From assembly GCA_961205875.1 (NCBI GenBank), contig OY540822.1:2854501-2918500 (forward strand): a stretch of 64,000 bases of DNA, in the 5' to 3' direction. The DNA is from Sialis fuliginosa (Eukaryota > Arthropoda > Insecta > Megaloptera > Sialidae). The position numbers and the translations under genes are program-made. A model generated the notes under the pieces. The model ran no database searches, had not been told where the DNA came from, and saw only the letters and a list, made by a program, of their open reading frames with translations. Of the stretch, positions 16,490-55,955 are shown piece after piece (within the stretch, counting starts at the first letter, position 1; each line of letters opens with the position of its first letter).

Positions 16490-17175
16490 ATATTCAGAGA
16501 TTTTCGGAGTTGCTGAATCCGAATTCGAGGTCTACTTTTCTGTATCGAGTGAAGAGTCAAGGTCGATTCAAGGTCAAATAAACAAAAGGCCATTACAAAA
16601 ATCTGAAAAAATGTGCAGGTAGGTTTTTGGGTCGCCGAATCCGAATCCGAGGTCCGCTTTTCTGTATTGAGTCAAGGTCAAGGTAGTTTTAAGGTCAAAT
16701 TAACAAAAGAATATAAAAAATAAAATAGTTTTAATAATTAGGTTTTCGGTATCACTGAATTCAAATCCGAGGTCCGTTTTTTTGTATCTAGTCACATCCT
16801 TTTGTTAATTTGACGTTAAAACTACCTTGACTTTGACTCGATACAGAAAAGCGGACCTCGGATTCGGGTTCGGCGACCCAAAAACCTACCTGCACATTTT
16901 TTTCAGATTTTTGTAATAGCCTTTTGTTTATTTGACCTTGAAATAACTTTGTCTTTCTCTCGATACAGAACAGCAGATCTCGGATTCGGATTCAGCGACC
17001 CAAAAAACCTACATGTACATTTTTTCAGATTTTTTATGGCCTTTTGTTAATTTGACCTTGAATCGACCTTGACCTTCACTCGATATAGAAAAGCAGACTT
17101 CGGATTCGGGTTCAGCGATCCCGAAAATCTAAATGTACATTTTTGCAGATTTTTGTAATGGCTTTTTGTTTATTG
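16490..17175. repeat. 120-bp satellite-like units in opposed orientation
   Basis: Three units on the forward strand (GAGGTC marker at 16527, 16649 and 16769) are followed by three on the reverse strand (markers at 16854, 16977 and about 17096), giving an inverted tandem array centred near 16810. Each unit contains CCGAATCCGA-type sequence, a TCAAGGTCAA stretch and AACAAAAGGCC. The regular period of 120-122 bases on both sides implies array growth followed by inversion, or insertion of a palindromic element that itself carried the array. Confidence 0.85.
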
Positions 17176-29936: not shown

Positions 29937-31158
29937 TGGCCAAGTGCGTGTTGGGCACGCACATGATAGGTTTCCGTAGTCATTACGATTTATAAACAAG
30001 AATTATTTCAACGGACGCTCTGATAACGACATTTAAATGCAAATATATCGTGACTGAAGGGTTAAAATCAAAAGGTCATATAACATTTTTTGTTGAATTT
30101 TAGGAGACCTATCTAAAGATACCCCACTCAATGGATTAAGTGAAAAAAAAATTGAGAACAATTTTCAGTTTATGGGAGGGGGTCCAAAATAATTTTGATA
30201 GTGTTCGTTATAATTTTCAGTGAAAGTACTAACTCAAGGCTACATTCTGAATTTTTTTCAGATTTTTTGAATAGATAGTTTAGAAATTAGGGTGGGGAGG
30301 ACGCTCTGACAACGACATTTAAATGCAAATATATCGTGACTGAAGGGTTAATATCAAAAGATCATTAAACAAGTTTTGTTGCATTTTGGGAGACCTATCT
30401 AATGACATCCCACTCAATGGGTTAAGTGAAAAAAAAATGTGAGTTCATTTTTCAGTCTATGGGAGGGGGGTCCAAAATAATTTTGACAGTGTTCGTTATA
30501 ATTTTCAGTGGAAGTACTAATTAAAAGCTACATTATAAATTTTTTTCAGATTTTTTGAAAAGATAGTTTAGAAATTAAGGGGGGGGGACGCTCTGATAAC
30601 GACATTTAAATGCAAATATATCGTTACTGAAGGGTTAAAATCAAAAGATCATTTAACATTTTTTGTTGCATTTTAGGATACCTATCCAATGACATCACAT
30701 TCAATGGGATATGTGAAAAAAAAATTGTGAGTTCATTTTTCAGTCAATGGGAGTGGGGGCCAAAATAATTTTGACAGTGTTCGTTATAATTTTCAGTGGA
30801 AGTACTAATTAAAGGCTACATTCATGAATTTTTTCAGATTTTTTAAATTGATAGTTTAGAAATTAGGGTGGGGGGACGCTTTTATCACGACTTTGAACGC
30901 AATTATATCGTGACTGAAGGGTTAAAATCAAAATGTCATATTGCATTTTAGGAGACCTATCTAAAGACTCCCCACTTAATGGATTAAGTGAAAATTTTTT
31001 TTTGAAAATACTTTTCAGTCTATGGAAAGGGGGTCCAAGTCTTCGTCTGTATACCAAATTTCATCTTAATCGGCTTAAAATTTTTGAGGACGGACGGACG
31101 GACGGACGGACGGACATGGCGAAACTATAAGGTTTCCTAGTTTTGTACGGAAACCTAA
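29937..31158 (+). mobile_element. Repeat element with 287-bp tandem units and a GGAC tail
   Basis: It lies inside the right arm of the palindrome. Units start GGACGCTCTGATAACGAC at 30013, 30299 and 30586, and a diverged one at 30874, with periods of 286-288 bp. Each unit holds ATATCGTGACTGAAGGGTTA and a G run. It ends with a GGAC run (about 31090-31114) and TACGGAAACCTA, which is the complement of TAGGTTTCCGTA near its left end (about 29968). No coding frame is convincing. The class is non-autonomous; its end structure resembles the sequence ending at 13690. Confidence 0.75.
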
Positions 31159-31532
31159 AAAAAGATTATTTTACATATTTTCATAGGGGTATTTTACCCC
31201 CTTAAACCGTTTTACCGCAGCTAAAATATCTTTTTTCTTACTATCCCTGACCCCCTCTAATTATATACAAAATTTAAACTCGATATGATTTTACCACTTG
31301 AAAAGGTTCCGAAGATGGATTAAATATTATAACAGTAACATAAAGTAGTTTTTCATCAGAAACAAACGTACAAAATGACAATTTTTATCCGGTCATTTTC
31401 TAGACTAACTTGCGCTAAAAAATCTCTTTACTGGTTTCTAGGGATCTTGAAATGTAAATATTCTTCTAAATTTGCCACTTTTCAACTATAAACACTTTTC
31501 TTATCGCTAATGTAATAAAAAAATTATGTATA

Positions 31533-32627
31533 TGAGCATTTCCTGTAGTTTTTTAAAAAACAGGGCGCATGAAAAATATACCACTTAATTCGTTATGAAA
31601 TTCCCTACAAATCTACATATGTTTAATTTTTTTTGATTAATTACAAAACCTACAAATAAATAAAAACTTTGTACATCGATTTCGTATTTATTTAATAACA
31701 ACTTTAAATGTCATGAATAGTGTCTCATAACTTCGTTGTTTAATATGTAGGTACTGATTTTTAAGACTGGCTCGCTTGCGTTCGCTCGGTTTTTATTTTT
31801 TTATAGGTTTTGTAATTAATCTAAAAAAATTAAACTTATGTAGATTTGTAGGGAATTTCATAACGAATTAAGTGGTATATTTTTCATTCGATTATCAGGA
31901 GCCCCGATATTTCAGAAACACTGAAAATTCCTGTAAATTCTTAACTTTAATACACGAGTAATTAGGTGTTTTATAAAAATTATATCTCACTTAGGAGCTC
32001 AATATGAAAAAATGTATTTCGAGGGTTATTTTAAGGATAAAAAAGGGAAACTTTTGCCAAAATTTGATGCAATTTAGAGTATAGAGAAAAAAGTTTTAAT
32101 GGTGTGAATATAGCGTTTTTTGGAAAATAAGACATCTAAAAACAAGTGTAACTTTAAAAGTTTTTGACCAAATTAAAAAATGTATAAATATTTGGAAACT
32201 ACATAAAAAATATAATAAAATGACCTATACCGGAAGTATTTTGGTTGAAACCAAAATATTTGGCGGCAATTTCAAAATCGACTATTTTTACAAAAAATCA
32301 AACTTAATGTTTTGGTACCGCATTCGGCCAAAATTGAATATTCGGGTCTGAAACCGATTTCAAATGAAAGATCAACAAAAAACGAAGAAAATTAGTCCTA
32401 TAACATGCATAATAAGTGGTATTTTGAAAAATAAGGTACTATCGAAAAAAGTCTAATTTCGCTCGATTTCAAAAGTTTAAAAAATCGTAATTCGGCCAAA
32501 AAAGGGGGCGAGGAGAAAAGATTTTGGGAAACGGGTTTTTTTGATATGTACTTTGAGAAAAAAAATTGGGAGCAAAATCGGTGACATACGTGCGCCCTGT
32601 TTTTTTAAAAAATACTGGAAATGCTCA
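31533..32627. mobile_element. TA-flanked MITE, 1095 bp
   Basis: Terminal repeats TGAGCATTTCCTGTAGTTTT and, inverted, AAAATACTGGAAATGCTCA extend for about 40 bp through AACAGGGCGCA. The intact left palindrome arm gives the empty site ATGTATATATTTTTCG, and comparison shows that a TA was duplicated. A second internal inverted repeat (31585-31690 with 31800-31895, arms holding TACAAATCTACATATG-like sequence) lies inside. It has no gene. TA duplication points to Tc1/mariner-type mobilisation. Confidence 0.8.
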
Positions 32628-35005
32628 TATATTTTTCGAAATATGATAATGCGGCGATGAAAGGGTTAAATATTTTTTTCGTGAAATATGTAACATATTA
32701 TATATTTGAATTACTATTGTATAATACAATTAAATTTAGTAAATAGAAGAAAAAAATCTTTAAAAATAATAGGGTGGGTGGGGGGTGGGGCTGAACGGTT
32801 TCACATTTTCGAATTTCGACTGTTGCAATTTAAAAGAGTATAAAAAATCATGAAAATTTTGTATTATAGATTTTTTGAAATCTTCATTAGTTTCAGAATT
32901 ATTTGAAATATACTATTTTTTTGCACATTTTCATAGGGGTATTTCACCCCCTTAAACCGTTTTACCGCAACTAAAATAATTTTTTTCTTACTACCCTTGA
33001 CCCCCTCTAACTATATTCAATACATTTGAATTCGATACGATTTTAGCACTTGAAAAGGTTCCCTTGTTAGTACTAGACGCATCTTAACACAATTACACCG
33101 TCCTCAGAACTTTGTGTGGAGGACATTACATCGCGAAGAACTGCATCCGTATCATATTCAACGAGTACAGGCATTACAACCAGAAGATTTTGGTCGGCGT
33201 GTGGAGTTTTGCACCTAGTTGTTACGTAAAATTGTCTTAGATCCAAATTTTTTAAACAAAATTCTGTGGACTGATGAGGCTCGATTTACGAGAGATGGTA
33301 TTATACCACCCACAACTACCATCTATGGTCTCTCCAGAATCCACTGTCATTGTGCAGTCACGATTTCAATATCGCTGGAGTATTAATACATGGGGTGGCA
33401 TTTTTAACAATCAGATACTTGATATCGAAGTTATACATGATAGACTTAACTCAGAAAGATATGTTAATTTCTTAGATGAAAGGCTTAATGAGATGTTGGA
33501 AGACACTCCACTTCCTATTCGACAACAAATGTGGTAGGTACCAACATGATGGCGCCCCAGCCCGCTATGGAAGACAAGTAACTGAATGGCTAAATAGACA
33601 TTATCCAAACAAATGGGTTGATCGTGGGGGTCCCATCACTTGGCCTCCAAGATCCCCCGATCTAAATCCTTTAGATTTTTTCCTTTGGGGTCACCTGAAG
33701 CAGCTTGTTTACAGTGTTGAAATAAACACTCGTGAACAATTATTCCAAAGAATAATGGATGCTGCCAATCAAATTCGGAACGAATATGTCATAGTTCATG
33801 TTGATTCGAAGATGTCAGGCTTGCATTCAAGCTCGAGGAGCACATTTTGAGCAATTGTTATAAGTGTTTTGTTTTCAAACTATTTATTATTTATTCATTG
33901 ATTGTGTTTTATCTTTTCAATAGTACCTAACTACCTACATCGTAAATGTATGAATTTGCTACACTTGTTGTATTACTAAAACAAATCACCAAAAATGAAG
34001 ATTTGTCAATAAGTGTGCATTTTAGGGGGAATATTTATATTAACATTCGTTCTTTTTTTAATCATAGAACAAACATATTAGTACGTCTGGTACGTAAAAA
34101 AACCTGCACTTTTTGATTGGGGTATGACACTTTCTGTGCTCATAGATAAGGTCAAAAGAATAATTTTCAGATAGGGAGCCACTTTAAAATCCGTGTAGAA
34201 CACCATTATATCGGCCATTAAAGATGGCCCCCACCGTTTTTATTAAATTGGCTGTATCTCAACTCCTAGTCATCTGATTTCAATTTTCTTTTGTTTGTTT
34301 TAAAGTTCTTATTGAGTAGATTATTTTTTGTCATTATTCATTTTTCTCTAAATCTTAAGGATTCCCCACAATTTTCGAAAATCTGAAAATGTTACTTTTT
34401 TTACGAACTTAATTTTTATATAACTTTTTTATTGTGCCCAATATCATTTTTTTAGATCATACAAATAGTCCAGTAACTTTATACATCACCGCATGCGTTA
34501 AATCCGGTAGTTCTGATTTTTTGCAGACTTGTTTATGACGTTGGCCTAATGAATAATCCAAGTTTGTGACCTCGAGCGCCGAACGCAACTTTGTCAAAAA
34601 TCGAAAAAACCGCGAAAAAATCGTTATTTTTTCAAATTTTGGCGATTATAACCCTAAAGGACTAGTTTTTGAAAAAACTTTTTTAGGACGTTTTTAAAGT
34701 AGACTAAATTTGCTACAAAATGATACTAGAACTGTCTCTGTAGACCCAATAGTTTCCGAGATAAAGCCTTTCAAAGTTTATCATTTTTTTCGAACTTCGC
34801 AATTTTTTGCAATTCTGTCGTTCTGAATGAATTTTGACCCTGATTATACTATCGAAGCCCTGTACTTTTATGATGGGATGTTAAAAAAGAAAATGAGAAG
34901 TGTGAACGATGATGGTTAAGCTAAGCTATGAATAATGAAGTAAAAAAGATAAGTACAACAAAAGTTAATAAGTTTATTTGTTAGGCAATTGAGTAATATT
35001 CAAAA

Positions 35006-35609
35006 TCAAAAAATTAAATTAATCTTGGAAGGTCCCGGTTGAGGTTCGTCCGTATCTGGATCGACGTATTGGGATGGCATATCCCCATCAGGGGATGGTG
35101 ATGAATCGTCGACGTCTTGTGCCCACAAGTCATCCTCCATTTCGACATGAGTGTAACTTGGATCTTCGAAGACGCTCAGAGCTCTTTGTGTTTTTCTGTG
35201 CAGCATCTACGGGGTAACCATCGAAAACTACTGCCACGTTTGAGCCATAGTGAGCAGAAATGTACTGTATGTATCTGTCAGCTATCGCACCAAATGATGA
35301 GCTTCGAGGCCACACAACATTGTGAAGTAGATGCCCTCCATCCACTACTACAAACTTCGTTAACCCTTGCTTCTCATTTAAGGTTACAGGTTGAAATACT
35401 GAATACAAGGTGGATTTTGTGCCCTTTCTCATTCCCTCTTCAGAGAACAATAACATTGGGATTGGTGACAGTTCGTAAGTGAAGAACTCTCGCAATTCTT
35501 CATCCGATTGTTTTAAGACACACAACCTGTGAAACAGTGTTAGAGGATCAACAGTTACCTGTTTATTGCCAACAGTAATAGTTCGTACAGCTGAAGAAAG
35601 GGACACCAC
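35006..35609 (-). pseudogene. Unassigned coding remnant in the centre of the TA element
   Basis: The reverse strand reads VSLSSAVRTITVGNKQVTVD, LFHRLCVLKQSDEELREFF TYELSPIPMLLFSEEGMRKG, then KFVVVDGGHLLHNVVWP and GSNVAVVFDGYPVDAAQKNT KSSERLRR, a frameshift near 35190, and an acidic proline-rich tail ending DEPQPGPSK. VVVDGGHLLH and VVFDGY resemble an uncharacterised transposon-linked arthropod family in my memory, with spaced aspartates that could suit a PIN-like or flap-nuclease fold; that is speculation. The N-terminal half is not seen. It lies between the arms of a mobile element. Confidence 0.5.
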
Positions 35610-35947
35610 ATTGTTACCGCTCTTTTAATTAGAAGGATACTAATCGAACTTAGGCATGAAATTTTGGCTTTATAGTTCATCACCATACCATATAATATTT
35701 TATATGTTCTGTTGTATTATAACTATTTAATAATAATAATAATAAATAGTGTATGCCAATAATAGTAAATTAAATTCTAAGTTTATCTAAGAAGACAAAA
35801 ATTAAAACTTTACCAGTTTATTTAATCTTAATCTAATATTACGTGACGACGATGTTGACATATTTTCATTATCAGAGATAATTGTGAACGACTCACTAGA
35901 AGAGATCCTGGAATGATCAACTCTATATTTAATGCTGTCTCTGTAAC

Positions 35948-36905
35948 TAGGGTTTGCAATCCCGCAATGCGGGATCCCGCACGTTTTGGAGATATGCGGA
36001 TCCCGCAAAGAAAGTGCGGGATCCGCGCGGAATTTTTTGAACATTAAATTTGTAGGTCGCGTGCGTTTTGAATACTTGTATAGCGTAAATATGGATAAAA
36101 AAGGTAACTATTTTGAAAAAAAAATTAAGGCAGAGATGACTGAATATGAAACTAGTGGAATTTTTACATATCTCTTGTTCACGATTAGTTAAGTGGTTAC
36201 ATACCTCCAGAATTAAAAAAAAACGTTCGAAAAATGTGACCGCGCAACCGATTAAAATATGCCAGGATTCGCGCGACTCAGGCGACGAAAAAAGCTTGAA
36301 CAGTCCGCAGATTACAACAAAAAGAAAACATAAAAAATACAAAATACAAAAATTTAGAAGAAGAATGACAGATTAAATAAAAGTTAACCACAAAAATTTA
36401 ATATACAAAATTCGTGTTTTCTCACAAACTATCTTTTTCTATACGATCTACACGATATTTTATTAACAGTATTGTCTCTAAAATACAACCGTAAATAATG
36501 ATATTTAGTGGTTTAGTTTTACGTGAAATACCGTATATACCGGTACGGCGTAAAAAGTGACCTACGTATAAAACAAGGGCTAATTTATACGCAACCAAGG
36601 AGTTAAAAAAATTAAAATAGTATAATCGAACAAAAAGACAAAAATAGTACCTAACAGATTAGACAACCTCCTATTTACAGGTGTTTTTTATGGATTTTAC
36701 ATCGGTCTATACGGTACGTGTTACGTTTACGTATCATATGTTATATGTTATCGCTATGGAACTATTTTTTATTAGTTGATTGTCATGTTAACTAAATAAT
36801 AGTAACTTTAAGCATGAATAATAAAAATTTTGGAAAAAGTGCGGGATCCCGCGGGATTGGCGGATTTCCCGCGGGAAAAAAAAGTCTGCGGGATTGCAAA
36901 CCCTA
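35948..36905. mobile_element. hAT-type element, 958 bp
   Basis: The terminal repeats TAGGGTTTGCAATCCCGC (35948) and GCGGGATTGCAAACCCTA (ending 36905) are perfect over 18 bp, and a perfect 8-bp duplication TCTGTAAC lies at 35940-35947 and 36906-36913. Both ends hold clusters of GCGGGATCCCGC palindromes. Inside is a possible scrap of coding sequence (36091-36375) with no recognised domain. Perfect TSD and repeats suggest recent insertion. Confidence 0.9.
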
Positions 36906-37423
36906 TCTGTAACCACTGGTAAGGTAGCAAAATAGACAAGATGACGGAGCACTGGGGACCAGTTGCTAGGTTCCGATTCGTGACTTCACACGAGCAATAC
37001 TAGTACACTTTGTCGGAGGTAATTGGAACTTCATCCCGCTAGAGTTATTCGAGTGACGTCTAAAATATTGCAAAAAATTGCGAAGTTCGAAAAAAATGAT
37101 AAACTTTGAAAGGCTTAATCTCGGAAACTATTGGGTCTACAGAGACAATTCTAGTATCATATTGTAGCAAATTTAGTCTACTTTAAAAACGTCCTAAAAA
37201 AGTTTTTTCAAAAACTAGTCCTTTAGGGTTATAATCGCCAAAATTTGAAAAAATAACGATTTTTTCGCGGTTTTTTCGATTTTTGACAAAGTTGCGTTCG
37301 GCGCTCGAGGTCACAAACTTGGATTATTCATTAGGCCAGCATCATAAACAAGTCTGCAAAAAATCAGAACTACCGGATTTAACGCATACTACCCCATACA
37401 TTCAGGCGACAAAGTTACTGGAC

Positions 37424-38642
37424 TAAAAAAAGAAAGACATTTTTTTCTGCGTTCCATTGATAACAAGATAATACTGTTTTAATTAACAACTTCTTTGGAA
37501 AAAGTGTGTTAAACTAAGAAAAATAGACTATTTTTGGATCATTCCATGTCAAGTTTACCTTTTATCATATGAAATTTTATGTTGGGATCAATTTTCTCAT
37601 ATGGTATAGCTAAAAAATTGAAAAATCTGTCATGGATGTCACTGAACTTTCTTATACAATAAAAAAATGTACGTGTATCTACTAATATAAAACAAATCAT
37701 TTTGGCTTACTGATAACAGATATAAAAAAATTAATAGAACATAAACTATAGATAATAACGTTCTCTACATTTTTTGTTATAAACATTTCATTCTGCCATG
37801 AACTTGTTCAAAAAAATGGAAAAAAATAAAAAATTAAATAAAAAAGATTTTTTTTTAATTGGTAAGAGATACAAAAAAATTAATTGGAACATAAACTATA
37901 AATAATAACGTTCTCTACATTTTTTGTTATAAACATTTCATTTTATCATGAACTTCTTAAAAAAAATGGAAAAAAATAAAAAATTAAATAAAAAAGATTT
38001 TTTTTTAATTGGTAAGAGATACAACAAAATTAATGGAACATAAACCATAGAAAATAACGTACTCTACAACTTTTATTTCAATAATTTATTTCTGCTTTAA
38101 ACCATTTCGAATATAATTGAAAAAAAACGATTATAACCTCAAAAACTTTTTTTGAGAGGAATTGAACATAACATAAATTATAAATAATAATATTATAAGT
38201 AAATTATTATTTAAACATTTTCTTCCAACAGGTACCGTTTCAGAAATATTTCGAATAATTACAAAAATTACATGAGTAAATATCCGTTTCCGGTTTTAAA
38301 AAAATCAGGTTTTCTTTCTTAAAACAAATTAATCCTAAATATAAAATTTTACCCCTCTATGTACTGTCATTTTTGAGTTACAACGTTTACAGACAAACAG
38401 ATACACACACAGACAGACATGGTGATAAAAATAGTCAGAATTGATTCAGGGAAGGTATAAATGGACATTTCCATCAAAATCTCTAATCAGAGAAACCAAT
38501 ACAGGTAAACTTGACATGGAATGATCCAAAAATAATCTATTTTTCTTAGTTTAACACGCTATTTCCAAAGAAGTTGTTAATTAAAACAGTATTATCTTGT
38601 TATCAATGGAACGGAGACAAAAATGTCTTTCTTTTTTATATG
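37424..38642. mobile_element. Foldback element with about 135-bp inverted ends and 148-bp tandem units
   Basis: AAAGAAAGACATTTTT and the next about 120 bp are repeated inverted at the other end, finishing AAAATGTCTTTC near 38633, including CAAGATAATACTG/CAGTATTATCTTG and the TCAAGTTTACCT/AGGTAAACTTGA joint. Inside, three units of about 148-150 bp start at 37714, 37862 and 38012, marked by GAGATACAAAAAAATTAAT. It lies in the right arm of the larger TA element. The part 38395-38510 is also seen in degenerate form at about 40800-40880. Confidence 0.75.
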
Positions 38643-39020
38643 GGGTAAAAAAATGATATTGGGCACAATAAAAAAGTTATAGAACAATTAAGTTTGTAAG
38701 AAAAGTGAAGTCTTCAGATTTCGGAAAATTGTGGGGAACCCTTAAGATTTCGAGAAAAATTAATAATGATAAAAACTATTTTTTTTAATAAGAACTTTAA
38801 AATAAACAAAAGAAAATTGAAATCAGATGATTAGGAGCTGAGATACAGCCAATTTAATAAAAACCGTGAGGGCCATCTTTAATAGCTAGTTCTACACGGA
38901 TTTTAAAGTGGCTCCCTATCTAAAAATGTTTCTTTTGACCTAATTTATGACCACCGAAAGTGGCATACCCCATTCAAAAAGTGCAGCGTTTTGGCTTTAT
39001 TTGCCACGAACCAGACGTAC

Positions 39021-41316: not shown

Positions 41317-43065
41317 CACTCATCCAAACAATTAAAGGAACAAGAATTTAAACATTTTTTTTTGGGTGTTTTTTGAAGTGCTGTATCTTTGTGAAAAATG
41401 GTCGTATCGAAATAAAACAAAAAGCATTTTAAAGCGTCAAGTTTCTAGTTTTGAGATTTTTTAGCATAATTTTTTTTAGTTACGGTTATCGCGCAATCAA
41501 AAGAAATAGTGGGCCACAAAAATTTTCCAATTTTTAAAATTTTTTTTTTAGGGTCCTCGGGCTTGGGAAATTTTTTTTCAGTTAAACGAATGCATTGGTC
41601 AGTTAACTTGTTTATTCAGCTTTAATTTGCTTTTTTTTTGGTCTCTCTCAATTTTTTTTCGCCGAGATATCTGCCTTTAAATGAAAAATGATTCTTTTGT
41701 CTTCGATCATCAATATATCAGCAACTAATAATTAAACAGTAAATTTAAGGGCAGTTTTAAAAACTTGAATAAATTTCCTACAAGACCCTTTCATGACTTT
41801 ATTAGAAAAACATTTTTTTTTACCCTCACCATTAGTGTGAAAAAGTACAAAAAAATGACCTTTTATGTTCTTTTAGTAAATCTATCGCTACTTTACAAAT
41901 ATTAATGGGAAGATTAATGTTGCCAGGTGATTTTACAGTTTAATGTACCTCCAACAGCCCTGTAAATTTTTAAATTGATCCATCGAACCGTTTTTCCGAA
42001 CCGACTGATCAAATTTTGCTTGCGTATTTATTCGATTCCAGCATGCGAGACAAAATTATTTTACAATTTCGTACGGTTCCCGCTGCGAAAGAATTAATTA
42101 ATGCAATTAATTCAAGATGAGTAAAATTATGGTACGCAAAAGCCGAATCGAGTCAAAAATGAGTCAGTATTGTTTCTTGAAATGTTTTAAAAATTTTGAA
42201 AAAAAAATTCAAAATTTAAAAAAAAAATTTTTTTTAAATTTTTTGGAATTTTTTTTCTCCATTTCAAATTTAACAAGTAATAATGCAAAACTGTAAATAA
42301 AATCAAAAATCGAAAATCGTTTTCTACATTTTGATGATGATTACACAATGTTATGTTCCAGTCTGTTACACAATACACATGTTCCTTTAATTGTTTTGTA
42401 AAACTTTGATCAATCGGTCCGGAAAAACGGTTCGATCAATTGTTGGAGGTACATTAAGCTGTAAAATCACCTGGCAACATTAATCTTCCCATTAATATTT
42501 GTAAAGTAGCGATAGATTTACTAAAAGAACATAAAAGGTCATTTTTTTGTACTTTTTCACACTAATGGTGAGGGTAAAAAAAAAAGTCATGAAAGGGTCT
42601 TGTAGGAAATTTATTCAAGTTTTTAAAACAGCCCTTAAATTTACTGTTTAATTATTAGTTGCTGATATATTGATGATCGAAGATAAAAGAATCATTTTTC
42701 ATTTAAAAGCAGATATCTCGGCGAAAAAAAATTGAGAGAGACCAAAAAAAAAGCAAATTAAAGCTGAATAAACAAGTTAACTGACCAATGCATTGGTTTA
42801 ACTGAAAAAAAAATTCCCAAGCCCGAGGACCCTTAAAAAAAATTTTAAAAATTGGAAAATTTTTGTGTCCCACTATTTCTTTTGATTGCGCGATAACCGT
42901 AACTCAAAAAAAAATATGCTAAAAAATCTCAAAACTAGAAACTTGACGCTTTAAAATGCTTTTTGTTTTATTTCGATACGACTATTTTTCACAAAGATAC
43001 AGCACTTCAAAAAACACCCCAAAAAAATGTTTAAATTCTTGTTCCTTTAATTGTTTGGATGAGTG
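41317..43065. mobile_element. 1749-bp TA-flanked palindrome
   Basis: It starts CACTCATCCAAACAATTAAA and ends with the complement (GTTTGGATGAGTG at 43053-43065), with TA on both sides (41315-41316 and 43066-43067). Arms of about 690 bp match almost throughout, including a TCGCGCAATCAAAAGAAATA segment. The unpaired centre is about 400 bp (42010-42410) and has an inner copy of the end-like CATGTTCCTTTAATTGTTTT at about 42379. No coding potential is seen. The ends look Tc1/mariner-like. Confidence 0.85.
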
Positions 43066-43289
43066 TATTATAAATTTAATTGCACAAATATATATGAGTA
43101 CTATAAACAAAGAGTAGTTCTTTATCCAGCAAATGAATTTCAAAATATCTGTCTTTGTTTGATACATGGAGAAATGATTTAAATATTATAATAATCAAAT
43201 GGGAGGAGCCTACTAAGTTTGTGATAAATGAAAATGAATACAAAATGCAAGACCATTAATGCAGGTGACTGTACACACTAGGTGTTTTT

Positions 43290-45010
43290 TTAAAGACTTT
43301 CCAGTGGATTATTTCCAAAATAACGAATTTTTAGAAAAAATATATCAGACAAAAGTTTCATGGTTTTGAAGGGGCAAAATATTGACATTATGGGGTGAGC
43401 TTAGAAAGGTCACTTTGATGTGTTTTCAGGTTCAACTTTTCTTTTTCAAATCTTAACCTATATTTTTTGTTGTAGATTAGTAATTTAAGAGATACTTAAA
43501 CTATACAACTTTTGCTTGAAACATTTTTAATGACAATGTAAATTTTTTATTATAAGAAGCAAACCAAAGAAAACTTTCTGAATTTTCCAGTTTTTTACTC
43601 GAAAATTACTAATTTTTATAAATAATCACAAGAGGTAAAAAGTACTTAGATTTGTGTAATGTAAAATTTCAGAATTTTTTTTAATAAAAAAGTTGCATGA
43701 AAATTTTTTTTTTTTTAAACAATTCTCCGAGAATCCTTGCTTAATTCTAAGTAAAAATTATAAAACATCCAGAAATTTCTCTTTGGTTTGCCTCATATCA
43801 TAAAAAATTGACATTTCTTTGGAGGTCCCTCACGAAGAATTTCCGGATATTTGTTCACATGAAGTTTTTTGCTTAAAATCTCATCCTCGATCTACGGTAA
43901 TTTTTTTTACACTAGTTGTAATGATAATTTTTTTATTACAAAACTCTATCTTCAATAGTTTGGGCGTAAAACATAGTGGACGGGTAGTGTGGAACACCCT
44001 AACTCTATTGAAGAAAATTAAATTCATTCTCTACAAAATTTATATTACTATTTTTCTCATATCTCAAATAGTTTATGAGTTATTGAGAATTTTCAAAAAT
44101 ACGAAAAACAAATTATTTACTATAAACATCGCTAAAATTAATAATATGTTTTAATTATAGTTTATATGCTTATAAATGTTTAAATATATTATTGATCATT
44201 TTTTATTTGTTTTAAATATCACTAAATTATGTTTGCATTAAATTATAATGCTAATAGTTGGTTATCATATTCAATAAATAATAAAGTGTTGAATTAAATA
44301 TTAATTTAATTCTGAGAGTACTTTAATAGTCCTAATATAAAACATATCAAGATTTTCAAGAAAAAGGAAACATTAACATTCCGCGAAATTTTTAAAGCAC
44401 ATACGCTGCTTTACTTTTCCCAATTTCACAATTATACGTTTAAAGCACATTTGCGAAAAAGTTGACTAAATAATGACATAATAGCAGTGTCTTGAAGATC
44501 TCACATTTTTTGTGAGAACCACTGATTTAAGCGTACATACTTTAATTAAAACATATTATTAAAACTATTAACATTATAATTTAATATAAAACTCTTTTAG
44601 CGTTGTTTATACCAAATAATTTGTTTTTTAAGAAAAAGATAATGAAAAATTGTATTTTTGAAAATTCTCAATAACTCGTAAACTATTTGAGGTACGAGAA
44701 AAATAATTTTATAAGTACAGTTTTGTAGAGAATTTAATTTTCTACAAAAGAGTTTGAATTAATTTTTTGTCAAATTAATAGTTTTCGATTTATTTGAAAA
44801 ACAAAAATATAATATTTTTTTTCAAAATGACGCTTACTTTTTAGAATTTTGAAAAAAATATATTTTATAGAATAGTATATAGTTTTTTGAGGGCAGATAC
44901 TAAGGGTTCTGGAAGTTTATATTTTTTTCATAGATCACTCCTGGTTATATCTATAACATATATGTTTTTAAAATGAATCGATAAGACCAATCAAAAGTTA
45001 TGAATTTTTA
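43290..45010. repeat. Degenerate inverted repeat, arms near 44020-44105 and 44650-44740
   Basis: The arms around TTATTGAGAATTTTC (44083) and GAAAATTCTCAATAA (44660) match over about 90 bp with several differences; the outer ends are not clear. The 111-aa frame at 43819-44154 runs through the left arm and has no recognised motif. A 40-bp palindrome-like CAGTG..CACTG at 44484-44523 may be the scar of a hAT element. Confidence 0.5.
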
Positions 45011-45525
45011 TTTAAATTATTAAAAACAAATTTTTTCTCAAAAACCATTACAAAAAAACGGTTGAAATTTTCAGAAAAAAATTACTTTTTTGTAACCAAT
45101 CATAACCTTCAAATTTCGTTAGAAAAGACGCGGGGGCACTTTTTGCACGCTTACCCGGCTATACCCTTTAAATTCAATCCCATTGTTTTGGAACTGCTGT
45201 ATTCTTTCACTTTAACATTTACGCATGCGCGTCATATGTCAAACAAGGCAATGGGTGTGTTCCGTATAGGATATTTTTTTGTCAAATAAGGTTGGTAGAA
45301 GCGCGCGCACGATTTTTTACTTTTGTGTTCCACATCAGCTGTTCCATTCAAACAAGAAAAAGTTAGGGACTGTCTCCGTTGCCGGCGGCGGCAACGTGAA
45401 TATAATGTGAATCGTTGCCGGCACTCGGTCCGATTCGGTAGTACTCGGGATGGTAACGAAAATGTCAAAATACGCCATCTGTTGTATCAAATGCAAACTC
45501 AAACCGCATGCGTCTTAAATTTAAA

Positions 45526-45575
45526 AAAATACAAAAACCGGTTTTCGGTTTTTCATAAAGTGAAAAACCGGTTTT
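45526..45575. repeat. AAACCGGTTTT-rich segment, partner at 48284-48375
   Basis: AAAACCGGTTTTCGGTTTTT here and a cluster of ACCGGTTAACCGGTTTCGG at 48340-48370 are GC-richer than their surroundings and may be the two ends of one element (about 45530-48370) with degenerate ends. No target duplication was resolved. Confidence 0.4.
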
Positions 45576-46420
45576 TAGTCGGGGGGTCTAGGGCTAAGGG
45601 GGATGTGGCCCGGCGAGCAAATATAAAAGTCAGTGAATAGTATATTTACGTATTTAAATTATTAATTGAAAAAAAGCCAGGCCAAGAAAAAATTTCTTAT
45701 GGGGTCCGCCAACAATACCAATCTGGGGGTTCGTGATAGTATGTGGAGGCCATAATTGCAGCTATAGCAAATATATTTTGTATTGTAATACATTATATTA
45801 TATTGAAATAAATTATTTATTTATTTTCATCTCAAATGTGGAATTTACAATTCCCAATTTGAAATTGATTAGTCTAAATTTGAACTTGAAATTGTATAAT
45901 CTCCTTTATTAACATATTATTATACACTTCACGAATGACCCTCAAATTCCATTTACTCCGCTATAATATTTTTATTTACACATTGCGCGTTAGTTTATAG
46001 ATGTCACCCTTTTTTAATTTAAATAAATTCACAACATAAATACTTCATGAATAACAGTAAAAAAATAAAATTATTAGTCACTTAAGAAACAAAAAATATA
46101 TAGGGTAAACTATACAATGATTGGCACTTTAAGCTAAAACTCGATTTTGAAAGACGATATTTTTTTAGATAATCAGTATTACAGGTTAAATTATGGTGGA
46201 TACTGATTTGTAGAGATTAAGGAATATAATAAAACATTTATATTAATTATAAGTATCCAATTATAAAATATAATCCAAAAAGAACAAAAAATGGTAGAAA
46301 AGCACAATTATTGGCACACTTGGCATAGTAATTGACACTATAGGTATCAGTAATTGGCACTTAATATATTTCTATTAAAAATGAAGTTTTAGTAAACAAA
46401 ACATATATTTCATACTTATA

Positions 46421-46995
46421 AAATCACATTAAATGATATTAATTATAAAATACATATTAATAATAAACTTTTACCAAACAAAATGTTTTTTTTCCTTCTA
46501 AAATCACATTAATTAGCATTAATTATCAAAAACAAATTCATAATAAACTTTAAGCAAACAAAATATTTTTTTTACTTCTAAAATCACATTAAATGATATT
46601 AATAATAGTAAAATATATATTAATAATAAACTTTTAGGAAACAAAATATTTTTTTTACATCTAAAATCACATTAAATGATATTAATAAGGGGCCATCCAT
46701 AAATTACGTCACACGTTAAGGTGGGAAGGGGGTCGACGAAGTGTGACAAGGTGGAAGGGGTCCTAAATTTTGTGACATCACATTTCAAAATATAATATAC
46801 TAGCTTTTTGTAGACATTTTAAACATTTGAATAATTTTAAGGTGTAAAATTGCAAAATATGTGACGTTATATTAGGTAGGGGGGGGTCTCACAAATGTGA
46901 CCAGCTGTGACAAGGACGGGGGGAGGGGGTGTAAAAAAAACATGGCCCCTAATATAGTAATATATACATATTTAATAATAATACTTCTAAAATCA
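46421..46995. repeat. 80-bp AT-rich tandem repeat, interrupted by a MITE
   Basis: The marker AAATCACATTAAATGATATT or close variants starts at 46421, 46501, 46581 and 46664; a fifth, diverged copy follows the MITE near 46991. Period is 80-83 bp. Units contain AATAATAAACTTTT and AACAAAATATTTTTTTT. Confidence 0.75.
46689..46949. mobile_element. Harbinger-like MITE, 261 bp
   Basis: Ends GGGGCCATCCATAAATTACG and, inverted, ATGGCCCC; flanked by TAA at 46686-46688 and 46950-46952. A 3-bp TWA duplication with G-rich ends is typical of PIF/Harbinger. Inside are GACGTCA-like and TGTGACAAGG motifs at both ends (46728-46750 and 46897-46915). It sits in the 80-bp tandem array. Confidence 0.75.
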
Positions 46996-48369
46996 CAATA
47001 AATATTAATTATAAAAATATAAATATAATATAATATTGTTTAAATTCCAAAATTTTAACTATTTACATTCTCTTTGTCAGTCTTTCAATACGCAAATATC
47101 TGTCTTTACCCTCTCACATGGCTTTCTCAATTATTCCAATTCTTATAAATATAAAACATAATCGTTATTATAATTTTTGGTTTCTAATAGGGTGACCCTT
47201 TTTTAAGAAGGTAATGCGGGGCGGAATTTTTTGGTGAAGGGGGGGGGAAATAATTTTTTTGGGGGGGGGAGGTAATTTTTTTTTAACAATAATAAGTTTA
47301 TTACAATTAAAATATTTTTTAGTTAAAAAAATTATGAAATTAATTTTATAATGTTCATTAATAATTTTTCACTGGTCTATGCATTATTTGTCAAATAAAG
47401 TTTGAACACCATGTGTGGATGACCAATTTGAGATATTCACAAACATAACAAATATTTGTCACATCTACATCACCAATACGCATAACCATGTGAAGTGCCG
47501 CCTAGACGGTACTTTAGGCATGTTTTAAATTTTCTGAAATAAAGTTAGATTAGTTCTGAAAGTGATTATTAAATAAAAACGTTGAAAAGAAAACACAATA
47601 GAAATTAGACTATTAATTAGCAATTCAGAAACGTATAGTGACTTTATTTAAATTTTGATTATAATGATTGTCACCCTGCTCTGGGTATAGTTATTGTCAC
47701 TGCCAAGAATTAAAAAAAAAAATATTCTTTATAAAATAACTTCAAAATTCTATTTAGTTTCGATTATACAATTTTTTAGGCATTTAAAACAAATAATTAA
47801 TTTGGAAACATTTGTTTAGTGATTGGCATGAGTGCCAATAAATTAGTTTTTAATAAAAACAACAATATCAATTTTGGCATAGTAATATTAACGGTTATAT
47901 TGAATAAAATGCATAAAATACAGTTCAAAATGACATTTTAATTTATATCTAAGTAAATACAAAGCTCATTTTGCAAGTAGCATAAGAAAATAATAATTTA
48001 TAGAATGATAAAGTTTACTTACTTCTTAAGGAAATTTTAACAAATGTCAAGAAACACAGCACCACACTCACTCTCCGACTTTTTATATTTTATACGCCAA
48101 TATTGTCAACTGTAAAAATGTTTCTACTTGTTGATATTTAAACAGTAACTACATGAGTAAACAATGAAATATTTAAAAACGATATATATAGTTTGCAATT
48201 CTTATTATTTGTTAATAAAGTCAAAAGTGCCAATCACTACTGTAGTGCCAAAGTTAGTATAGTTTTATATATAATAGACTTTCGGTTTTTCGGGAAAACC
48301 CCGGTTTTACGGTTTTGGTAAATTTTAACAAAAAACCGGTTAACCGGTTTCGGTTAAAACCGGTTTGTA

Positions 48370-48470
48370 ACAGTAAATTGTTCATACGATAAATTGTTCG
48401 TTCGGTAAATTGTTTTACGATGAACTGTTGTATGATAAACTGCGTTTACGATAAATTGACCGGAACCCAT
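48370..48470. repeat. Degenerate 17-bp repeat, GATAAATTGTTC type
   Basis: TAAATTGTTCATACGATAAA, then about five more copies of a TACGATAAATTG-like unit, run up to 48463. Spacing varies (15-19 bp). Function unknown. Confidence 0.55.
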
Positions 48471-49010
48471 ATATAGTATATAGCAGGACTTGACCTGATA
48501 TGTATATTTTTGCTTCCTCGCAATATCGAAGATACGAGAAGCTATGTGATCGTTTCAGATTGAGACAAAAAAAAAGTTCAAAATTTTAAATTTCTTTATC
48601 CGTTTCACGTCAAGACAAACACTTTTCGTTCCATGTCTGTCTGTCTGTCCGTGTATCCGTCCGTCTGTCCCCTGAATCCTTGTCTCACGCATAACTCATG
48701 AACCACTGAATCGATATTATTGATACTTGGTCGGATGGTTGGGTTTGGTTTGAGGACGGTCCCATTTCAAAATCATCAAAATCGTGTGTAAGGGGGGGAG
48801 GTGACACCCCAAAATATTTATTTTTTTAAGATATCTCAAGAATGACACATGTTACGAGAAAATTTTATAGAATATTTTTTGTAGAGCATTAAATTTCCTA
48901 TAATATGGGTCTACTACGTTTGTTGTAAAATATTCCCTTACAAAGATTTATCTCAATTTATTTTAAAAATTCGCGTTTTGTTTTTCTAAATTGATATTTG
49001 ATTGGATATA

Positions 49011-49095
49011 TTAAATGTCATTTTGACGTTTTAAATGTCATTTTAGCGTTTTAAATGTCACTTTGACGTTTTAAATGTCATTTTGACATTTGCAT
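49011..49095. repeat. 20-bp tandem repeat, four units
   Basis: TTAAATGTCATTTTGACGTT-type units begin at exactly 49011, 49031, 49051 and 49071, with single-base changes. Each holds the imperfect palindrome GTCATTTTGAC. Confidence 0.85.
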
Positions 49096-49802
49096 AAATT
49101 AAGATTTAGATTGAAATTGTCAAAAAATTAAAAATATATGAAAAAATATTTAGGTGCGTTTTAAGAAAAATTTTGAACTAAGATTTTTTAGTAAAATTTG
49201 TATAAAAATTAAATGCCAAGCAATTTATCTGAACACTATCGGTTTTAGTGAATTTAGCACGAGGAAGCACTGTGCATTTACTTGGCAAATGTTTTTTATT
49301 AATTAAGAATAATTTTATTATTTGTGCAAAATAAAACAGTATAAATCAATAAATAATTTACTATCTTTGCGAATTGTGTCATATTTATTATACATTTTTA
49401 TTAAATATTTAACAAAAATAGAGAATCCGTAAAAAAATTCTTTATGTAGGTAAGGTAGGTATCATTTAAAACCTAAATTCAAAAATTTCATAATCTGTAA
49501 AGTCATCTAGCGGCAGAAAATCATACCAACTGCCGGCAACGATTCACGTTGCCGTCGCCGGCAACGGAGTCAGTCCCAAAAAGTTATTGTTGAAATTGTT
49601 TTATCAGCTGTTTCATACACAAGAGAAATGCCACAGAAACATGTAAAAAGTTTTTATTTTAATTGAAGTAAATTTAATGGTTAAATAATTTAAAAAATTA
49701 ATTATAGAAATGAAATGTCTATTTTTATAGACATCTTAGCTTCTTCATAAACAAAATGATATTATGTTCTTTTTCCATTGTGTCCATTAGATCTATAATA
49801 AC

Positions 49803-49943
49803 TAGGGTGACAATATAAAAAAAGACCATCAAAAATAGCAGGGGACGCAAATATGAAGATTAGGTTATTTAGGTGTCGACGAAAATAAAATAAAATATCT
49901 TTTTCATCTCAGAATTTACAAAAACTAAAATCTGGTCATCCTA
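49803..49943. mobile_element. hAT-type MITE, 141 bp (diverged)
   Basis: Ends TAGGGTGACAA and TCTGGTCATCCTA are flanked by ATAATAAC (49795-49802) and ATGATAAC (49944-49951), 7 of 8 matching. It shares its inner CAAAAATAG..ACGCAAA and ACTAAAATCTGGTCA with the element at 52272-52486, so it is an older member of that family. Confidence 0.75.
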
Positions 49944-50567
49944 ATGATAACGTATAACAATATCAACAATAACTTTTTCTTGTTTGAATGTAACAGCTGA
50001 TGTGGAACACAAAAGTAAAAAATCGTGCGCGCGCTTCTACCAACCTTATTTGACAAAAAAAATCCTATACGGAACACACCCAATATGTAGTTATCTAAAC
50101 ATTTAATTTAAACTAAAATTATACACCTTAACCACAATAAAACAATGTCACTCGACACGTGTTTCGACTTCACAAGAAGTTCTCATCAGGAGCCTAACAA
50201 TTCCAGACATTTAACCTTTATTTACTGTAAAATTATTCTAATCACTCATAAATATTGTCTTTCATTACCTGGTGTTCTTGCTTATAATATATTGAAAATT
50301 CGTCATAAATTTCAACATCTTGCAGACGATCGGTTTCATCAATTTCTTCTTTTATGTCTTCTTGTTTCACGTGAAACATTTTTATACACTTAGGTCCAAT
50401 CTTACAATATACATAAATTAAATAACTATTAACTGTAACTCTGGATTACGTCGAGAACTCTTAGAAAGTATTAAACACAATCACTACAACGGGAGTTAGC
50501 TATATTAGTTGTCAAACATCACACGCTAATCGTTTGTACCAACTGCATTATTACATTGATTATATTA

Positions 50568-50628
50568 CCACTGAGCTGTTGGAAAAGGAGCAATCCAGCC
50601 GACCAGAAATGCATCTCATCATCATCAT
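50568..50628 (+). mobile_element. Tiny 5'-truncated retroposon with 13-bp target duplication
   Basis: The 61-bp insert holds GAGCTGTTGGAAAAGG and ends in ATC units. It is flanked by ATTGATTATATTA at 50555-50567 and 50629-50641, a perfect 13-bp direct repeat as made by target-primed reverse transcription. Its core is shared with the larger insertion at 56710-56937. Confidence 0.8.
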
Positions 50629-50914
50629 ATTGATTATATTATACTTTTCGCGCATGCGCATTTTCTCCGTTCAGTGGCTGTATGTATGAACTAGGGCAGT
50701 GATACTCAACATTTTTAATCGTTTTATTTTATTTTATCTTATTGATTTTTTCCTACGCTGATGATTGCAATTCCTTATACAAATATGGTACTTGTCTACT
50801 ATATCCACATGTTTATTTTTGTATATTAATAAGTAGGAATTTTATATAGAAAAACATGTTGATGCTCTAATAATATACATGTTAACTGTTCTTATTTAGG
50901 ATTGATTAGTTTCT

Positions 50915-50940
50915 GTTAGGTTAGGTTAAGTTAGGTTACT
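50915..50940 (+). repeat. TTAGG-type telomere-like run
   Basis: GTTAGGTTAGGTTAAGTTAG followed by GTTA is four TTAGG-like units with one change. (TTAGG)n is the usual insect telomere repeat; here it is only a short interstitial run, and similar runs also occur elsewhere in insect DNA. Confidence 0.55.
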
Positions 50941-51133
50941 CTAATCTAAAATTATATCAATGACTTTTGAATAACTTGTAATCAAAACTAATATAAGTAT
51001 CAGTATTAGTGATGTAACGAATATTCGCATTCGCAAGAAAAAGTGCGAATATTTTTGCGAATATTACTTCTTTTTGTAATAAAAAATATTTTTTTATCTA
51101 TTATATTAAATAATTATTTTTTATTATATTATA

Positions 51134-52021
51134 CAGGGTGGGGCATTTAAAGTGTTACAGATGGTTATCTCAGAACCATCGCATATTTGAAAAAAATGTT
51201 TCAACCAAAAAATGTTTGGTTGTAATCGAATAGTAATATTTATTTGCTATTTTTACGTAGCCTTCAAGGATATTTGAAGGTCAACATTATTTTTTTAAAT
51301 AGGAACCTATAGTTTTTATTTAGTAATCTTATTCTACGTGAAAAAACACGAATCTTTCATTGAAAACTTTTTTTTGAACAACCCAAGTTTTCCAAGGTAT
51401 CTAACAAAATAATTCGAGATTTTGAACTTTCAAGAATTTTTTACTCAGAAACCACAAACTTTAGAAAAAATGTACAGAATACACAAAATATTTATTTTGG
51501 TCTAATAAAGCGTGCAGAATTATTTTAAAAATTTCAAAAACTTTTTAAAATTTTTAAAACATTTTCTATTTATTTTATTTTAGCAAAAACAAAAAAAGTA
51601 CGAAATGTTAAAAAAATTATAAAATAATTCTCTAAGTTTTATTAGATCAAAATAAATATTTTTTGTATCTTGTACTTTTTTTCTAAAGTTTATGGTTTCT
51701 GAGTAAAAAATTCGTGAATATTCAAAATCTCGAATTATTTTGTTAGATACCTTGGAAAACTTGGGTTGTTCAAAAAAAAGTTTTCAATGAAAGATTCGTA
51801 TCTTTTCACGTAAAATAAGATTACTAAATAAAAACTATAGGTTCCTATTTAAAAAAATAATGTTGACCTTCAAATATCCTTGAAGGCTCGGTAAAAATAG
51901 CAAATAAATATTACTATTCGATTACCCCCTTACAACCAAACATTTTTTGGTTGAAACATTTTTTTCAAATATGCGATGGTTCTGAGATAACCATCTGTAA
52001 CACTTTAAATGCCCCACCCTA
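51134..52021. mobile_element. 888-bp TA-flanked palindrome
   Basis: CAGGGTGGGGCATTTAAAGT at 51134 is mirrored by ACTTTAAATGCCCCACCCTA ending at 52021, with TA on both sides. Arms of about 430 bp match closely to a short centre near 51578. Non-coding. Confidence 0.85.
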
Positions 52022-52271
52022 TATATTATTATTATTTTTATTTATTATAAATTATAAGTTGTATAATATTTAATTTGTTTATTAAATATCCCTAAAAACA
52101 TTTATTTCCATAAAAGTAATTATTCCTAGCTGGCTGTATATTGTATAATATGCAACATTAATGCCCGATATTATACAGAAATTGCATGGGTGCAAATTTG
52201 CTCTCAGCTAACGCTATCTGCTGGGTGTTAAATTGTTATGAAATTGTTCGATCTTTTAAAGCAGTGGTAAT

Positions 52272-52486
52272 TAGGGTGACCAGGTCTCAGGTTTTGACCC
52301 GGAGTCTCAGGGTTTGCATACTGAATCTCCGGGCTCAGGGTTTGGGTGCAATTTATCTGGGTTTTTTCAAAAAATGAAGACGACTAAAAAAAAAAGGTAG
52401 TCAAAAATAGAGTAGGAGGCGCAAAAGTGCAGATGAGGTCTTCATTTACATGTCAGGTTTACTAAAACTAAAATCTGGTCACCCTA
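52272..52486. mobile_element. hAT-type MITE, 215 bp
   Basis: Ends TAGGGTGACCAGGT and ATCTGGTCACCCTA with a perfect 8-bp duplication GTGGTAAT (52264-52271 and 52487-52494). The start holds GACCCGGAGTCTCAGGGTTT units in near-tandem. Relatives: 49803-49943 and the partial copy at 55795. Confidence 0.9.
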
Positions 52487-52906
52487 GTGGTAATAAATGT
52501 ATAATAATGTAAACGCTATGCATTTTATGAGGTACACTTGGCAGCACTTATTTTAAGTCGCTGATTTCTACTTAATACGCATGAATTATGTTTTTCGTTG
52601 AGAAAATATCCTTTTTAAAAAAATCTTTATTTGTTATAATTCTATACAATGCTTATAGCTAGATGGTATGCTTGAGAATAAGTCTTATAGAAGAGGATAA
52701 CAGTTTGCATGATTTTACTCCGTCATCATTTTCTATAATTCTCTGAATGTAATATAATACGTTTATACGCCGGATAAGGCGATGATAAAAATGTGTTAAA
52801 TTCCTAAGTGTTATACATATGATTAAATAGTTATTCATAATTAAATTAAGTACAATACAATATAATATCTTAACTATTGGTTATTGAAATAAATATTTAT
52901 CTTATA

Positions 52907-55389
52907 CACTGCTTGTCACAATTAGTGGGACACTTTTTCAGTGTAATACAGTTTTGGTAAAAATTGTCATATTAATATGAAAATTCATAAAAATCATTAA
53001 TGTGGTGTTGTTTCAAAGTCCAAAGAGTGAAAACTTTGTGCGTTCATCGATAGCGGATGAACAACCCTTGGAGGGGTGAAAAATGGAAAGTGGCAATTTC
53101 AAGTAGTGAAAAAAAAGTTTTAAAACTGTTTATTCCAAGATAATGATAAATATCATATTAATTTTTATATGTAGAACTTATTTGAACCCTAAAGATATAA
53201 ATTATTTTTTTAAATCAATATTTAATTCTATTTACCACCTGTTATCATCCCCTAAATTTAGGTTATTAGAAATATAGGAAAATATGAAAGAAATTTTAAA
53301 AATCTTCAAGGGTTGTTAGAAATAATCATAATAAATATAAATTTACAATTTCAATAAAATCCAGTAATTTTCAACCACTTTTCTACCCTTTAATATTCAA
53401 CCCCCTGTGTATTACAATTAATTCGAACAACGTAGGTAAAGATAAATTTTTGAAATTTACAAAATAGGTAGTAAACTGTATATACAACGGTACTGTATGT
53501 TAAAAAACACAAATAAATTATAAGGGTAGGCATCAACCCTTAAATACTAATCCGCCCCAAATAGTACGGTACAATATTAAATTTAAGTGTGATTTTATAA
53601 GAAATCAATTAATGCTCTTATTTGAAGATTTTTGTGAAAATTTTGTGCATCACAATTCACCCCTACGGATGTAACTACCCTAAATTAAAAAAATTTACAC
53701 TTTTTTTAAAACATCGTATTGAAAAATTCAGTGGAATTTTTTTGTCATCCTTTCATAATATAAAAGGCCGACATTTGATCTTTCTACACCGGTAAAATTA
53801 AAACAATACACTATCAGGAACTACCCTTAAATTCTTATTTCTTAAAAATAAAATAAATTTTATTTCAATTAATATTGAAAATATAGGTATCTATGGAAAT
53901 TAATGAACAATTTACAAGTTTTTCGTATGTTTGGCTCAAATTAATTCAATCGTTTTGAGCCGTTTCTGATAATGTATTGGTTTAGTTTTACCGGTGACGA
54001 AAGAACAAATGTCGGACTTTTATATTACGAAAGGATGAAAAAAAAATACCACGGACTGTCTAGATATCATATTTAAAAAAATGTGTATATTTTTTAAATT
54101 GAGGGTACCTATATCCATAGGGGTGAATTGTGGTGCACAAAATTTTCAAAAAAATTGTTAAATAACAGCTTTAATTGATTTTTCATAAAATCGCAATTGA
54201 ATTCAATTTACAACCCTATTATCGGGGGTGATTTAGTTTTTAAGGGTTGATGACTACCCTTATAACTTATTTATGTTTTTTAACATACAATTCTGTTGTA
54301 TACACAGTTTACTACACATTTAGTAAATTTCAACGTCTCAGAATGATTGAATTAATTTTAGCGAAACTTATGAAATACTCGTAAATTGTCCATTAATTTC
54401 CATAGATACCTATATTTTCAATATTAATTGAAATAAAATTTATTTTATTTTTAAGAATTAAGAATTTAAGGATAGTTCCTGATAGTGTATTGTTTTAATT
54501 TTACCGGTGTAGAAAGATCAAATGTCGGCCTTTTATATTACGAAGGGATGACAAAAAAATTCTACTGAATTTTTAGATACGATGTTTTAAAAAAAGTGTA
54601 TATTTTTTAAATTTAGGGTAGCTACATCCGTAGGGGTGAATTGTGGTGCACAAAATTTTCACAAAAATCTTCAAATAAGAGCATTAATTGATTTCTTATA
54701 AAATCACACTTAAATTTAATATTGTACCGTACTATTTGGGGCGGATTAGTATTTAAGGGTTGATGCCTACCCTTATAATTTATTTGTGTTTTTTAACATA
54801 CAGTACCGTTGTATATACAGTTTACTACCTATTTTGTAAATTTCAAAAATTTATCTTTACCTACGTTGTTCGAATTAATTGTAATACACAGGGGGTTGAA
54901 TATTAAAGGGTAGAAAAGTGGTTGAAAATTACTGGATTTTATTGAAATTGTAAATTTATATTTATTATGATTATTTCTAACAACCCTTGAAGATTTTTAA
55001 AATTTCTTTCATATTTTCCTATATTTCTAATAACCTAAATTTAGGGGATGATAACAGGTGGTAAATAGAATTAAATATTGATTTAAAAAAATAATTTATA
55101 CCTTTAGGGTTCAAATAAGTTCTACGTATAAAAATTAATATGAATTTTATCATTATCTTGGAATAAACAGTTTTTAATCTTTTTTTTCAATACTTGAAAT
55201 TGGCACTTTCCATTTTTCACCCCTCCAAGGGTTGTACACCCGCTATCGATGAACGCACAAAGTTTTCACTCTTTGGGCTTTGAAACAACACCACACTAAT
55301 GATTTTTATGAATTTTCATATTAATATGACAATTTTTACCAAAACTGTGTTACACTGAAAAAGTGTCCCACTAATTGTGACAAGCAGTG
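52907..55389. mobile_element. 2483-bp TA-flanked palindrome with an extra internal copy
   Basis: CACTGCTTGTCACAATTAGT at 52907 is mirrored at the right end (ACAAGCAGTG to 55389), with TA on both sides. Arms of about 1 kb pair (52907-53945 with 54345-55389). The loop holds a third, shorter copy of right-arm sequence in direct orientation (about 53950-54335 resembles 54490-54850; GGTGAATTGTGGTGCACAAA at 54121 and 54635). No transposase was seen. The ends look Tc1/mariner-like. Confidence 0.82.
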
Positions 55390-55794
55390 TATAATAGATA
55401 GTTCATTTCATGACTCATGCTTTAAAGTCATTATATGTACGATTTCATTGACTACATCTTGTAAGTGGTTGTCATTAACATTTAATAGTAGATAGCGTTA
55501 GCTGGAAGCAAATTTGCTATCATGCAAATTTGCACCCATGCAATTTCTTTATAATACCGGGCATAAAACTATTAAAAAAAAGTCAATATTCGCATTCGCA
55601 TTCGCGAATGTTAAAAATCATACATTCGTATGTATTAATAGTACATCAGTATTAATAATAAAGTATTTTTACGTACAATTTATATTATACAACAATATTA
55701 ATATCAGTTCTGAAATACGACAATTAATTTTTAATTCGAGTTTCATACCATTTTCTGCTCTTGATGCATAGACATAAAGAATGGACCACGCATC

Positions 55795-55955
55795 TAGGGT
55801 GACCAGGTCTCCGGTTTTGACCCGGAGTCTCAGGGTTTGCACACTGCATCTCCGGGCTCAGGGTTTAGGTGCAATTTCTCCGGGTTTTGCAAAAAATGAT
55901 GACGGCTAAAAAAAAGGTCGTCAAAAATAGAGCAGGGTACATAACAGTGCAGATT
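55795..55955 (+). mobile_element. Partial copy of the 52272-52486 MITE
   Basis: TAGGGTGACCAGGTCTCCGG, then GACCCGGAGTCTCAGGGTTT and the following about 120 bp match the start of the 215-bp MITE; the other end and target duplication are lost. Confidence 0.7.

Follow-up and report, generated by a model that had tools for sequence, protein, structure and literature searches.

Probable non-autonomous Tc1/mariner-type palindromes with long, putatively part-converted arms at one locus of Sialis fuliginosa

Tc6 of Caenorhabditis elegans is a Tc1-like, non-autonomous palindrome found at TA. Tc4 of the same nematode duplicates the TNA of a CTNAG target and uses a DDD transposase, and the Tc4 clade also occurs in tardigrades and arthropods (PMC11071193); Yuan et al. 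(1991) call Tc4 a fold-back element in their title, which appears among the references of PMC11071193. The aphid long-TIR (LTIR) mariner combines a TA duplication with TIRs of ~460 bp and has short derivatives/MITEs (PMC5490172). The terminal repeats of Galileo reach up to 1.25 kb and are described as extended by recruiting inner sequence (PMC3573991, PMC4168063). It has been proposed that a broken terminal repeat is repaired from the other one with a longer tract, and that long terminal repeats are a convergent trait of different superfamilies (PMC3573991); slippage and template switching during repair are named in this context (PMC4168063). Additionally, terminal-repeat expansion is mentioned for a nematode Tc1/mariner element (PMC3169594). 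Fold-back Tc1/mariner elements (Tc4), long-TIR mariners with short derivatives and terminal-repeat extension (Galileo) are thus already in print, and the phenomenon treated here is not new in kind. No published report on the locus itself was recognised in a literature search whose scope took in few subscription papers.

The window analysed is a stretch of 64,000 nt from Sialis fuliginosa (assembly GCA_961205875.1, contig OY540822.1, positions 2,854,501 to 2,918,500). A preliminary description of it had placed five long-armed palindromic structures, here elements A to E, within about 27 kb. The palindromes lie where they were described (Table 1) and are not a product of chance; when the window was shuffled 20 times with dinucleotide content kept, no shuffle gave an inverted BLAST match at E<=1e-8. 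Target duplications enclose the units: A, B, C and E each have TA at either end, and D has TTA. Given the local TA frequency of 0.106, the chance of TA at both ends of one element is 0.011. Counting against the transposon reading, the TA flanks are short and lie in an AT-rich region. TA duplications of the kind associated with non-autonomous Tc1/mariner elements are found at A, B, C, E and F; for N, a TA duplication is probable by eye, its position uncertain by one base within an A run. With sizes of 0.9-4.4 kb and arms of ~420-1060 bp, the elements are too large and too long-armed for MITEs in the strict sense, which measure a few hundred bp, carry short terminal repeats and occur as many homogeneous copies.

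Table 1. Positions of the inverted-repeat elements, their nested elements and associated features within the window
Feature	Position	Strand	Description
Element D	28618..33066	.	~1-kb arms, two nested elements; TTA on both sides; target C-TTA-G in a broken transposase gene
Second nested element of D	29935..31156	.	Middle of D; 288-bp tandem repeats; boundaries approximate
Element F	31533..32627	.	Nested in right arm of D; ends TGAGCATTTCC; target duplication TA; inner palindrome 31566-31890
Tc1/mariner transposase gene, downstream part	33067..33850	+	Interrupted by D; own stop and frame change
Element E	34081..39020	.	Long arms and unique core; target duplication TA; outer arms diverged, inner arms alike
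Element N	37426..38637 (approx.)	.	Nested in right arm of E; 135-bp arms; boundaries by eye
Element A	41317..43065	.	Palindrome; arms 41317-41956 / 42441-43065; target duplication TA; ends CACT...
Element B	51134..52021	.	Palindrome; ~420-bp arms; short loop; target duplication TA; ends CAGGG / TAGGG
Element C	52907..55389	.	Palindrome; ~1060-bp arms; target duplication TA; ends CACT...
Difference-free tract of C	53196..53649	.	454 columns, left arm, partner in right arm
Centre of C	53962..54333	.	Inverted copy of 53450-53821, direct copy of 54475-54846

Several described systems resemble these elements in part. Tc6 and other Tc1-like non-autonomous elements are alike in their TA duplications, with an end motif common to A and C in the present case; this likeness is one of description, and no autonomous or coding partner was found in the viral and prokaryote contig collections. 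The aphid LTIR mariner shares the TA duplication, long TIRs and short derivatives, but comprises, as described, transposase genes and internal-deletion derivatives and not full palindromes, and its printed ends differ by eye from those of A-E (PMC5490172). Long extended arms, and internal repeats within the arms as in D, recall published accounts of Galileo and Foldback; these belong, however, to the P superfamily and carry 7-8 bp duplications, whereas only TA or TTA is found here. D has both the C-TNA-G target with TNA duplicated and the fold-back form of Tc4, a likeness of target rule and overall form. A, B, C and E, in contrast, have TA and not TNA, and thus do not follow the Tc4 rule.

A-D are probably non-autonomous DNA transposons of Tc1/mariner type, in the form of full or near-full palindromes whose arms were extended by inverted copying and later partly converted. 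Their matching target duplications lie at the borders of colinear arms, and arm identity ends at these duplications. Each of the four was probably inserted as a whole unit, and a transposase encoded elsewhere would move them by recognising the outer ends. The long arms would stem from the repair of a break within an element, with the opposite arm serving as an inverted template, and tracts of conversion between the arms would since have held them partly alike. C is the clearest case: in addition to its 454-column tract, it appears to retain an older inverted copy at its centre, flanked by two younger arms.

The preliminary description regarded the families as unrelated and their ends as different. 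Several families are indeed involved. The arms of different elements have no mutual match among the self-BLAST matches listed (at least 70 bp, within the window), so that for the arms the term 'unrelated' holds. The ends of A and C, however, are related. They agree at 17/30 ungapped positions (P 2e-4 by shuffling; local score P 0.0016), and out of ten end pairs compared this pair alone survives correction for ten comparisons. B and C agree at 14/30 (P 0.006, ungapped), which is suggestive before correction, and comparison by local score gave 0.042 for B-D and 0.043 for A-B. Self-BLAST found no second copy of any element in the window. The A/C end pattern had 0 matches in the viral and genome contig collections (viral and prokaryote), the C and B end patterns had 0 matches in the viral contig collection, and the transposase piece had no relative among viral contigs. 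Since the collections searched are viral and prokaryote, the absence of relatives says little about animals.

None of A-D has an open frame exceeding the maximum of 50 shuffles. E and F each do (164 vs 120 aa and 83 vs 80, respectively); the 164-aa frame is encoded by the minus strand of the E core (35130-35624) and has no Pfam match above its cut-off. At the default cut-off, Pfam matched 1 of 10 window proteins, a Penelope-type reverse transcriptase, and an Rfam search of the window returned 0 families. The reverse transcriptase belongs to two Penelope-type elements located head to head at 1535-5202 and 99.4% alike over 1574 bp, where a GIY-YIG domain falls just under the cut-off and a further palindrome is found at 3108-3284. 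The window also encodes a helicase domain of Pif1 type, such as Helitrons carry. Together with the Penelope-type reverse transcriptase and the mariner-type transposase, this domain would point to animal, perhaps insect, DNA. An array of ~122-bp units at 16431-17174 has a self-match in inverted orientation as well. Inverted repeats of 114 bp, 98% alike and ~4.6 kb apart, are located at 45252-50082; TA on both sides was not seen for these.

D had been described as long-armed and TA-flanked. It is a near-complete palindrome, but only with its two nested elements set aside, and its flanks are TTA and not just TA. When 29935-31156 and 31534-32614 are left out of the alignment, 961/1004 aligned bases of the arms agree; gaps take up 138 columns, and the largest of them, near the loop, spans ~44 bases. 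A degenerate direct repeat is present within the arms (28622-29086 vs 29252-29722, 67%). F is present in the right arm only, and the left arm of D contains its exact empty site, uninterrupted after removal of one TA. Thus, the two halves of a palindrome serve as each other's empty-site record.

The gene that D interrupts matches the Sleeping Beauty transposase at 33476-33850 (E 1.5e-4), and two Pfam transposase families match weakly downstream of D, under their curated cut-offs. Given the stop and frame change downstream, the gene is decayed with or without D. Short open frames on the left and right of D join in frame with one TTA left out, which supports insertion of D as a whole unit. The frame is also kept with 0 bases left out and is lost with 1, 2, 4 or 5, so that the frame alone does not fix the duplication at three bases; its length is given by the matching TTA. 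The C-TNA-G arrangement was found at random place pairs in 28-56 kb with a frequency of 4e-5. In its target, D fits Tc4, which is itself a fold-back Tc1/mariner element, and D is a candidate for assignment to it. The ends of Tc4/Tc5 presumably resemble the first bases of D. PIF/Harbinger, suggested by the TTA duplication, was considered for D and set aside, as the C-TTA-G context and the fold-back form fit Tc4 better.

A and B differ in how closely they approach a pure palindrome. The arms of B run to both ends of the element, the first base of which differs between the two sides, and show 25 difference events in 417 aligned columns. The longest arm pair (51213-51555 / 51592-51934) leaves 36 bp between its members, in agreement with the near-pure palindrome first described. 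Folded as RNA, B is predicted to form one hairpin of -565 kcal/mol, compared with a mean of -143 for 20 shuffles. The arms of A are likewise similar (15 difference events in 628 columns), and its coordinates were given correctly; 'nearly pure' is nonetheless too strong a term for A, because 484 bp lie between its arms.

The palindrome reported at C is likewise present, with arms at 52902-53964 / 54332-55394 that differ by 34 events in 1058 aligned columns. The 367-bp centre is 82-84% alike to its inverted counterpart in the left arm. Over 372 positions, 64 and 59 differences separate the centre from the two arms, and 9 separate one arm from the other. Of these 9, polarised with the centre as outgroup, 7 are assigned to the left arm and 2 to the right. 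The simplest reading of this arrangement is that C may be an older palindrome in which new inverted copying of one side has since overwritten the other. C also lies within a wider and weaker inverted repeat (52027-52201 / 55524-55703, 65% alike), and may therefore have inserted into another element. The segments 52272-52434 and 55795-55954, also around C, are direct copies that are 88% alike.

Were one arm copied onto the other in tracts, mosaic arms such as those of C and E would be expected. None of 20000 permutations of the 34 events in C reached a difference-free run as long as the one observed (P 5e-5). A significant run was absent in the other 7 of the 8 arm pairs tested, with P values of 0.49 for A, 0.06 for B, 0.78 and 0.31 for the outer and inner arms of D, 0.35 and 0.11 for the outer and inner arms of E, and 0.08 for the Penelope pair. 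In E, which has the long arms and TA flanks described but also a unique core, and so is not a full palindrome, the inner arms (34493-34813 / 37067-37387) are 98% alike. Difference events number 45 in 380 columns of the outer arms vs 5 in 321 of the inner arms (P 2.9e-8, an optimistic value because the division into segments was taken from distinct BLAST hits). The core of E additionally holds, as judged by eye, a hAT-like element at 35948-36905 whose ends are GC-rich and whose duplication, TCTGTAAC, is 8 bp long. As far as sequence comparison goes, the mosaic arm identity in C, and less cleanly in E, points to copying between arms, and the 454-column run of C points to a putative arm-to-arm conversion tract. 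That only C passes the run test would also suit selection or a low local mutation rate as the cause of this tract. Within the tract, however, 34/200 positions (53450-53649) distinguish the centre copy from both arms, which indicates that sequence there tolerates change, and a long reading frame is absent; selection or low mutation is thus an unlikely cause.

Inverted copying of an arm during break repair is the preferred origin of the long arms. A mechanism common to the elements, as the preliminary description proposed, is reasonable because of the precedents for terminal-repeat extension and repair (PMC3573991, PMC4168063, PMC3169594, as far as these describe it), and a hairpin primer is one version of it. 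In that version, the strand loops back at a free 3' end and serves as its own template. The short loop of B, with so little sequence between its longest arms, would suit such priming, which is also compatible with formation of the arms of A, B and D in a single event. The centres of C and A are, however, 367 and 484 bp long, C would require at least two rounds, and no junction signature was found that separates hairpin priming from break repair using the other arm. Symmetry of the flanks, a possible sign of copying past the ends, is weak after AT matching (P 0.045 for A, 0.011 for B, 0.011 for C, 0.82 for D and 0.16 for E), and was discarded as such a sign, as a preference for AT-palindrome targets fits equally well. 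Hairpin priming is therefore regarded as quite improbable.

Palindromes could also be formed by two separate copies that landed side by side in opposite orientation. Inverted pairs of element copies do occur, and the Penelope-type pair in this window may be one. In the palindromes, by contrast, end sequences are found only at the outer borders; the best inner matches to the 26-base ends are mismatched at 12 positions in B and at 10 in both C and E. The single inner motif of A (at 42405, minus strand, 19/26 positions, that is 7 mismatches) is oriented like the right end and does not face it. Four elements would moreover each require a matching outer TA or TTA, and such side-by-side landing in each case is very unlikely. 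Assembly artefacts can practically be dismissed: fold-back reads, from missed adapters or similar, do produce palindromes in assemblies, but the arms differ by ~2-12% with indels and stop at the target duplications, a gene is interrupted by D at C-TTA-G, and F interrupts one arm of D only.

The locus is informative on how long inverted repeats in DNA transposons are formed and maintained, a question that in the literature consulted has been argued mainly from Galileo. The records that can be read here are the older third copy in C, the conversion-like tract and the empty sites in the opposite arm. If transcribed, such elements would fold to long double-stranded RNA, which may be a source of siRNA as the preliminary description proposed. 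A further-reaching proposal, and a doubtful one at present, is that several independent Tc1/mariner-type families in this genome became full palindromes whose arms are kept alike by ongoing conversion, with C recording two successive rounds of inverted duplication. If this were general, a non-autonomous element would enter a self-repairing state by becoming palindromic, and such elements would have done so repeatedly.
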